Shown: positions 23,449 through 33,992 of the stretch, one piece after another | Position numbering within the stretch: position 1 is the stretch's first letter | Layout: every line of letters begins with the position of its first letter | Source of the DNA: Phytoseiulus persimilis | Taxonomy: Eukaryota > Arthropoda > Arachnida > Mesostigmata > Phytoseiidae | Reading direction: 5' to 3' | DNA length: 64,000 bases | Assembly (NCBI GenBank): GCA_037576195.1 | Contig: CM075101.1 | Coordinates: forward strand, 17,484,001 to 17,548,000 | The notes under the pieces: model-generated | What the model was told of the DNA's origin: nothing | What the model saw: the letters and a program-made list of their open reading frames with translations, nothing else | The model's database searches: none | Position numbers and translations under genes: made by a program

Positions 23449-24237
<789 letters not shown>

Positions 24238-33126: not shown

Positions 33127-33134
33127 ATCACGAG
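33127..33134. repeat. hAT target-site duplication, left (ATCACGAG)
   Basis: This 8-bp direct repeat is identical to 33985-33992 and abuts the left TIR. Confidence 0.92.
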
Positions 33135-33984
33135 TAGGCCTTCCAAAGATCCGCAAATTCTGAGATCCGTGGATCCGGGATCCGCGATTCCCGTGAAGTA
33201 GGATCCGCGGATCTCTGCAGAACGGATCCGCGAAGTTTCACGGTCGACTCAAACTGTTTCCAGCTCATTGTTGCCAAATAGACTCGCAACACGCTGTCCT
33301 CGAGGCGTGGTTCAGTGCATCTTCTTTTCATAGCTTGATATGGGGGAGGAGTGAGAGAAGAAAAGCCAAGTACATACTATATGAGCTCTTGCATTCATGT
33401 GGCAATTCGCCAAGTGAACGCATTGTTTAATTTACTGTAAAAGAACAAGCAAACAATGAACTATGTACATCACAAAGCGAGTTAGGGAACTCTTGAGAGG
33501 GCTGTATCCTATCATTACGGATTTCTCATCTACAAATTCTTGCTCGGATCACCGGTGGAATTTGTTGGCTTCCTTCTTGCCGATTCAAACGCTCTTCGGA
33601 GCATGAAAGCATCGTTCAAACTTTCTGGTTCGAGGCTCACGCGGTTTTCGCCGAGGATCATTGGCAAGATGCTGAAGTCCCGTTCGGGCTGAACGGAGGT
33701 GGGCGGTAAGGACTCAAAAGTCTGACAGCTGCCTCTGAGCTACTGTGGCGCGATACAGACACACAAACAAACAAACAAAACAGAATCGGGCTCGAAATTC
33801 CCGACTTAAAAATACCCTGTAGGGTTGACACCATCGGGCTACGGATCCACGGGCGATAACCACAACAAAAGACAGGTAATCCGTGTTTGCCCTACGACCA
33901 TTCATTCATGGAATTTCACGATTAAATGAGCGCTTGTCGTGCGGATCCGGATCCGCGAATATCTCGTGGATACTGGAAGGCCTA
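33135..33984 (-). mobile_element. hAT DNA transposon, 850 bp internally deleted copy
   Basis: The element is bounded by 11-bp perfect terminal inverted repeats, TAGGCCTTCCA at 33135-33145 and its complement at 33974-33984. Similarity continues weakly inward to a shared ATCC. It is flanked by an identical 8-bp duplication, ATCACGAG, the target-site length typical of hAT elements. GATCC-containing words (GATCCGCG and variants) crowd the subterminal zones: seven between 33148 and 33229, and three at 33844, 33944 and 33950. Such arrays are typical hAT transposase-binding regions. Inside, on the minus strand, lies the C-terminal dimerisation end of a hAT transposase, so this is a deletion derivative of an autonomous element. 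It is far too short for a full transposase (usually 600 or more residues) and would depend on a helper. Perfect duplications and repeats suggest a fairly recent insertion. Confidence 0.9.
33530..33739 (-). pseudogene. hAT transposase C-terminal fragment
   Basis: The frame is open for 69 codons to a TAG at 33530-33532. It contains SLPPTSVQPERDFSILPMIL followed by an N-R-V-S-L-E-P-E-S-L-N pattern. This matches the hAT C-terminal (dimerisation) signature, in which a P-x-T-S-x-x-x-E-R-x-F-S core is followed by a K/N-R-x-x-L-x-x-E-x-L block. The catalytic RNase H-like core and the N-terminal BED zinc finger are absent from the element, so it cannot encode an active enzyme. Orientation places the gene's 3' end next to the left TIR, as in full hAT elements. 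Confidence 0.8.
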
Positions 33985-33992
33985 ATCACGAG
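33985..33992. repeat. hAT target-site duplication, right (ATCACGAG)
   Basis: This second copy of the 8-bp duplication abuts the right TIR. Removing the element and one copy restores a continuous GC-rich flank. Confidence 0.92.

Follow-up and report, generated by a model that had tools for sequence, protein, structure and literature searches.

A non-autonomous hAT element of Phytoseiulus persimilis and the composite long copies of its subfamily

An N-terminal BED zinc finger is common, but not universal, in the hAT superfamily of transposons, and the target preference nTnnnnAn applies to the Ac group of this superfamily. Ac, Buster and Tip are named as hAT groups in the excerpted text of one survey (PMC3942097). 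The preference nTnnnnAn is described for Hermes in the excerpted text of PMC10368747. The Drosophila hAT MITE known as mar is represented by short non-autonomous copies with terminal inverted repeats (TIRs), according to the available part of PMC3517528. Foreign filler sequence and short microhomology at breakpoints have been reported in animal TIR elements, mostly hAT and TcMariner, and most single-copy filler cases are argued not to be driven by transposition in the excerpted part of that study (PMC8277862).

The window analysed here is the whole stretch of 64,000 bp of Phytoseiulus persimilis DNA. It contains a genuine, clean and ordinary non-autonomous hAT element, which belongs to a well-delimited new hAT subfamily (family A). 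The element resembles Hermes-like hAT elements in its 8-bp target-site duplication (TSD), nTnnnnAn target, short TIRs, subterminal repeats and BED finger at the family level, but it differs from Hermes in TIR and sequence, and its subterminal word is GATCCGC, whereas that of Hermes is AAG(T/C) (PMC10368747, excerpted text). It is likewise comparable to the short mar copies, although the sequence differs and the window element, at ~850 bp, is long and has a remnant of the last exon that is still readable (PMC3517528, available part). As in a MITE-like subfamily, numerous short copies have the same structure and lack a full gene (14 of 32 delimited copies). The parts of the window element are as follows.

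33127-33134, unstranded: left copy of the TSD, ATCACGAG, identical to 33985-33992 and fitting nTnnnnAn
33135-33984, unstranded: whole non-autonomous element, 850 bp, delimited by TIRs and TSD
33135-33145, plus strand: left TIR TAGGCCTTCCA, 11 bp, exact match, common to family copies
33148-33231, unstranded: left subterminal array of seven GATCC sites, five of them GATCCGC, counted; presumed BED-finger sites
33530-33725, minus strand: remnant of the last transposase exon, ~64 codons and stop, from the reading frame; end of the hAT dimerisation region
33726-33936, unstranded: region R, probable older right interior, not present in any long copy examined
33941-33957, unstranded: right subterminal array, two GATCCGC in the window copy and more units in relatives
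33974-33984, minus strand: right TIR TAGGCCTTCCA, 11 bp, exact match
33985-33992, unstranded: right copy of the TSD, ATCACGAG, read from the sequence

The 8-bp duplication and the 11-bp inverted repeats are exact, as an earlier sequence-only reading of this DNA had stated. An exact 8-bp direct repeat just outside an exact 11-bp inverted pair, at most 5 kb apart, was found once in the window, and the same scan of 20 mononucleotide shuffles of the window gave no match. The five GATCCGC of the left array start at element positions 14, 45, 68, 73 (minus strand) and 91. GATCC, counted on either strand with palindromes once, is present seven times in the first 120 bp and twice in the last 120 bp, with one further site at 33843-33848, so the earlier count of seven left and three right was correct for this copy. 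Elsewhere in the window, the mean was 0.26 per 120-bp bin and the maximum was 3 (1572 overlapping bins). The exon remnant scored 20.5 bits against PF05699, below the cut-off of 21.4, and a BED zinc finger is absent from the window copy. The C-terminal exon, formerly described as kept, is represented by its end and not by the whole exon.

The 11-mer TAGGCCTTCCA was rejected as a stand-alone family marker: with one mismatch allowed, at least two occurrences were also found in 14 of 100 shuffled windows, and the genome contains 127 exact matches vs 107 for the reversed control. Family identity was instead assigned from paired ends, TSD, array and homology taken together. The part of the literature searched gave no description of family A, and the 11-mer turned up in five papers on other matters, as judged by their titles. 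An open frame resembling a Rab-type small GTPase, judged by eye, is located at 23449-24234 of the window.

The window element is very probably a non-autonomous cut-and-paste hAT element whose ancestor was gutted internally, with the ends kept, and which was moved by transposase made elsewhere. An internal deletion would have removed nearly all of the transposase gene of the ancestor, leaving both ends, and the ~850-bp form would then have multiplied via transposase supplied elsewhere. A predicted transposase of 656 aa, composed of BED finger, central core and hAT dimerisation region, would presumably read the GATCCGC arrays by its BED fingers, cut at the TAGGCCTTCCA tips and join the DNA to a staggered 8-bp nTnnnnAn target. 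We infer the splice pattern of its gene, the binding of the arrays by BED fingers, activity at the present day and the movement of the window copy by the enzyme of the long copies.

Copies of family A were searched in the genome (181 Mb, 127 contigs). Forty of 113 candidate places were scored in the first family search, and the copy counts given here are therefore lower bounds. Forty places (L009-L048) were fetched, L048 being the window copy; L001-L008 duplicate eight of them and were excluded from the counts. Other copies with the same ends exist, as the sequence-only reading had expected: both TIRs (at most three mismatches each) and a TSD (at most one mismatch) were found at 32 of the 40 places, with an exact TSD at 22, and eight places (L025, L026, L027, L034, L036, L044, L046 and L047) were not delimited. 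The pattern nTnnnnAn fits 13 of 21 exact TSDs vs 6.2% of the background (binomial P ~2e-11), the background being 8000 8-mers taken from the fetched flanks and L030 being dropped as a duplicate. At L024 (oriented 301-2159), two short copies lie head to tail inside one outer end pair in a composite-like arrangement of 1859 bp, the TSD of which has one mismatch. Matches to the hAT dimerisation family number at least 145 genome-wide (150 of 444 candidates scored), and none was found in 14 control genomes.

The flanks are common to L029, L030 and L033, which therefore probably represent a single insertion borne by a host repeat. A query of 320 bp was made from the joined flanks of L029, with the junction at 160. 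At all 40 places scored out of 157 candidates, it matched unbroken over the junction (query bases 44 or 46 to 320), with 94-99% identity and the 8-bp target present once. The first 44 query bases match separately, ~60 bp further out, and the L029 repeat therefore also differs there. At least 40 copies of this host repeat lack the insertion. Empty sites reading the target once, as had been proposed, are thus found for this sibling but not for the window copy, whose own locus was the only match for its query part (8 of 8 candidates scored).

Longer relatives with a BED-finger transposase, also foreseen earlier, are present as six long copies, L009, L010, L011 and L013 (4467-4468 bp), L014 (4439 bp) and L018 (4449 bp). 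Their TSDs are all exact, as are their TIRs save one base in L018, and five of them are 98.7-99.7% identical to L009. A four-exon gene was predicted on the minus strand of these copies from splice signals and frames. The predicted transposase is open for 656 aa in two of the six (L011 and L013), the frame of exon 1 is shifted in L009, L014 and L018, and one splice anchor of the predicted gene was not found in L010. The L011 prediction contains zf-BED (PF02892, 31.1 bits, cut-off 20.6) and Dimer_Tnp_hAT (PF05699, 23.3 bits, cut-off 21.4). For the central core, neither Pfam (above cut-off) nor the PDB structures gave a match; its position and motifs suggest that it may be an RNase-H-like DDE catalytic core, with candidate residues picked by eye.

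The short copies could be thought to have arisen by recent direct deletion of the present L009-type long element. The left 591 bp of the window copy is 94% and its terminal array piece 92% identical to L009, and the left 591 bp is as near to the long-type copies as to the short ones (best match L014, 94.5%), in keeping with such a deletion. Region R nevertheless makes it very unlikely. This region gives only chance-length matches with L009-type copies, but L019 and L052 contain it, as does, in diverged form (70-75%), L059, where it starts ~200 bp past the exon-1 region. No long-type copy also holding region R was found among the scored places (40 of 87 and 40 of 52 candidates). In all six long copies, the region is replaced by a stretch (element ~3132-4350 in L009) that matches another hAT family, C, at 83%, and this match stops just inside the right GATCC array. 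Because the long copies have 1.2 kb from another hAT family in place of their former right interior, the window copy appears to derive from an older form, and we read region R as the probable old right interior. The promoter of the predicted gene would lie in the replaced stretch, and the replacement may have affected expression. The window copy was rightly described earlier as a deletion derivative, but it did not arise from today's long copies by deletion alone.

A copy of family C was delimited at C3 37074657-37076780 (2124 bp), with exact TIR TAGGCTTTGCA and TSD GTGCCTAC/GTGCTTAC, and C-like pieces are common in the genome (40 of 394 candidates scored). The filler in Pack-TIR elements and in filling by template switch is captured host sequence, whereas the filler of the long copies of family A matches another hAT family; unlike those cases, the composite of family A is shared by six or more long copies that are nearly identical (PMC8277862, excerpted part).

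The comparison of the left 591 bp also argues against direct deletion. With L039 left out of the short copies, mean identity is 92.9% among short copies (78 pairs, 13 chosen) vs 98.6% among long-type copies (45 pairs, 10 chosen), and 93.4% between short and long (130 pairs). Since the short copies differ more among themselves than the long-type copies, the short form is the older radiation. The short structure, with its match unbroken over the internal junction, is found in the 14 delimited copies mentioned above, the window copy included, with lengths of 761-876 bp. This shared junction supports a possible single founder of the short copies, which the left-end tree does not. In the tree of these 591 bp, the short copies are not one clade: L029-L033 are placed with L017 and L028, and L037 and L041 are among the neighbours of the window copy elsewhere. 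Many nodes of the tree are weakly supported, and the split could be due to exchange of left ends.

Queries from the right 267 bp and the upstream part of L019 (scored as given above), the transposase (97 of 287 candidates scored) and the exon-1 region (13 of 13) gave no full-length copy that combines an intact transposase with region R at the right end. L059 is the only place that matched both the L019-upstream and exon-1 queries, and it is diverged (79%) and internally deleted. L055 (transposase 95% identical) was rejected as a full-length partner; it holds an insertion and is similar to L009 only as far as the start of exon 2. Six copies (L012, L015, L016, L017, L021 and L028) are deletion derivatives of the long type, each with a different junction, and all have TIRs and exact TSDs. 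The longest runs shared at these junctions are 5, 7, 9, 2, 5 and 1 bp, respectively, and the probability of a run of at least 5 bp at random cut points is 0.006 for each junction. These junctions fit interrupted gap repair or template switching, of the kind reported for animal TIR elements (PMC8277862, excerpted part).

The asymmetry of the arrays, with seven sites left and two to three right, had been offered as a trait defining the family, and it might be a functional mark like the one-sided BED binding in Hermes, where BED fingers bind the left end but not the right (PMC10368747, excerpted text). In 6 of the 32 copies the left count is indeed at least double the right, but the reverse holds for 3 of 32, the mean over all 32 is 5.5 for the left 120 bp and 6.3 for the right 120 bp, and right-hand sites (10-11 GATCC) outnumber left-hand ones (5-8) in the six long copies. 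The right array of L009 repeats in 34-bp steps, and the content of the right array differs among copies. The asymmetry was rejected as a family trait and is copy-to-copy variation; that it is a functional mark of the family is very unlikely, and the low right count of the window copy is likely due to loss of right-hand units. Least credible of all is that the insert was shortened only after landing at the window site and was never mobile as a short form, for although the empty site of the window copy was not found, its TSD is still perfect and other copies with different TSDs have the same internal junction, and the short form itself was therefore mobile.

The tips of the element had been called unusual, but related families in the same genome carry the similar tips TAGGGCTTCCA, TAGGCTTTGCA and TAGGCATCGCA. 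Besides family C, the delimited copies of these families are the following.

L051, 272-3566: family B, 3295 bp, TSD ATTGTGAG
L062, 318-3598: family B, second copy, 3281 bp, TSD GTTGCGAC
L060, 845-3941: family D, 3097 bp, TIR TAGGCATCGCA, TSD ATCGTAAC

The TIRs of family B are TAGGGCTTCCA and TAGGCCTTCCA, and its transposase is ~50% identical to that of family A over the core. L051 has 9 AACCGC in the 150 bp at one end, 11 in the 150 bp at the other and no GATCCGC there, and the ends of the 32 copies of family A contain 338 GATCCGC and 2 AACCGC. AACCGC is present at both ends of family D and mostly at the right end of family C (9 vs 1). The CCGC/GCGG cores of five of the seven left sites of family A (L013) lie within one base of those of family B (L051) on the same strand (P ~0.003), and four of nine coincide at the right end (P ~0.015), in a test by random placement that was devised after the pattern had been seen and used one copy per family. 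The second half of the BED finger is VLKNGRSTSPLMKHLRVAH in A, VLKNDRSTSSMIAHLRKKH in B, LKNERSTSSLSEHLRTQH in D and VLRNGKSTGSVEKHLKTKH in L061, and both finger and array were read in A, B and D only. L061, a 60% relative, is undelimited, and its 3.4 kb contain two AACCGC and no GATCCGC. L056, with a transposase 81% identical to that of family A, contains five AACCGC and no GATCCGC in 4.2 kb, with a C-like piece inside; its element ends were not found, and it could be an exception to the word pattern or a copy simply without its ends.

By analogy with Hermes, the arrays are presumably BED-finger sites. It is tentatively suggested, as a reading more doubtful than probable, that near-identical tips were kept while the word of one family changed from AACCGC to GATCCGC in both arrays, at some sites in the same position and strand. 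The composite long element fits such a word switch, because the foreign interior reaches the inner edge of the array while the GATCCGC array and the tip are kept. The part of the literature searched gave no co-change of arrays and BED finger. If the suggestion is true, a switch in the specificity of the BED finger would have been accompanied by a coordinated change of ~17 sites. The long copies show a hAT element swapping its interior while its ends stay, and families A, B and D, present in one genome with a different word in A, constitute a natural experiment on recognition by the BED finger.
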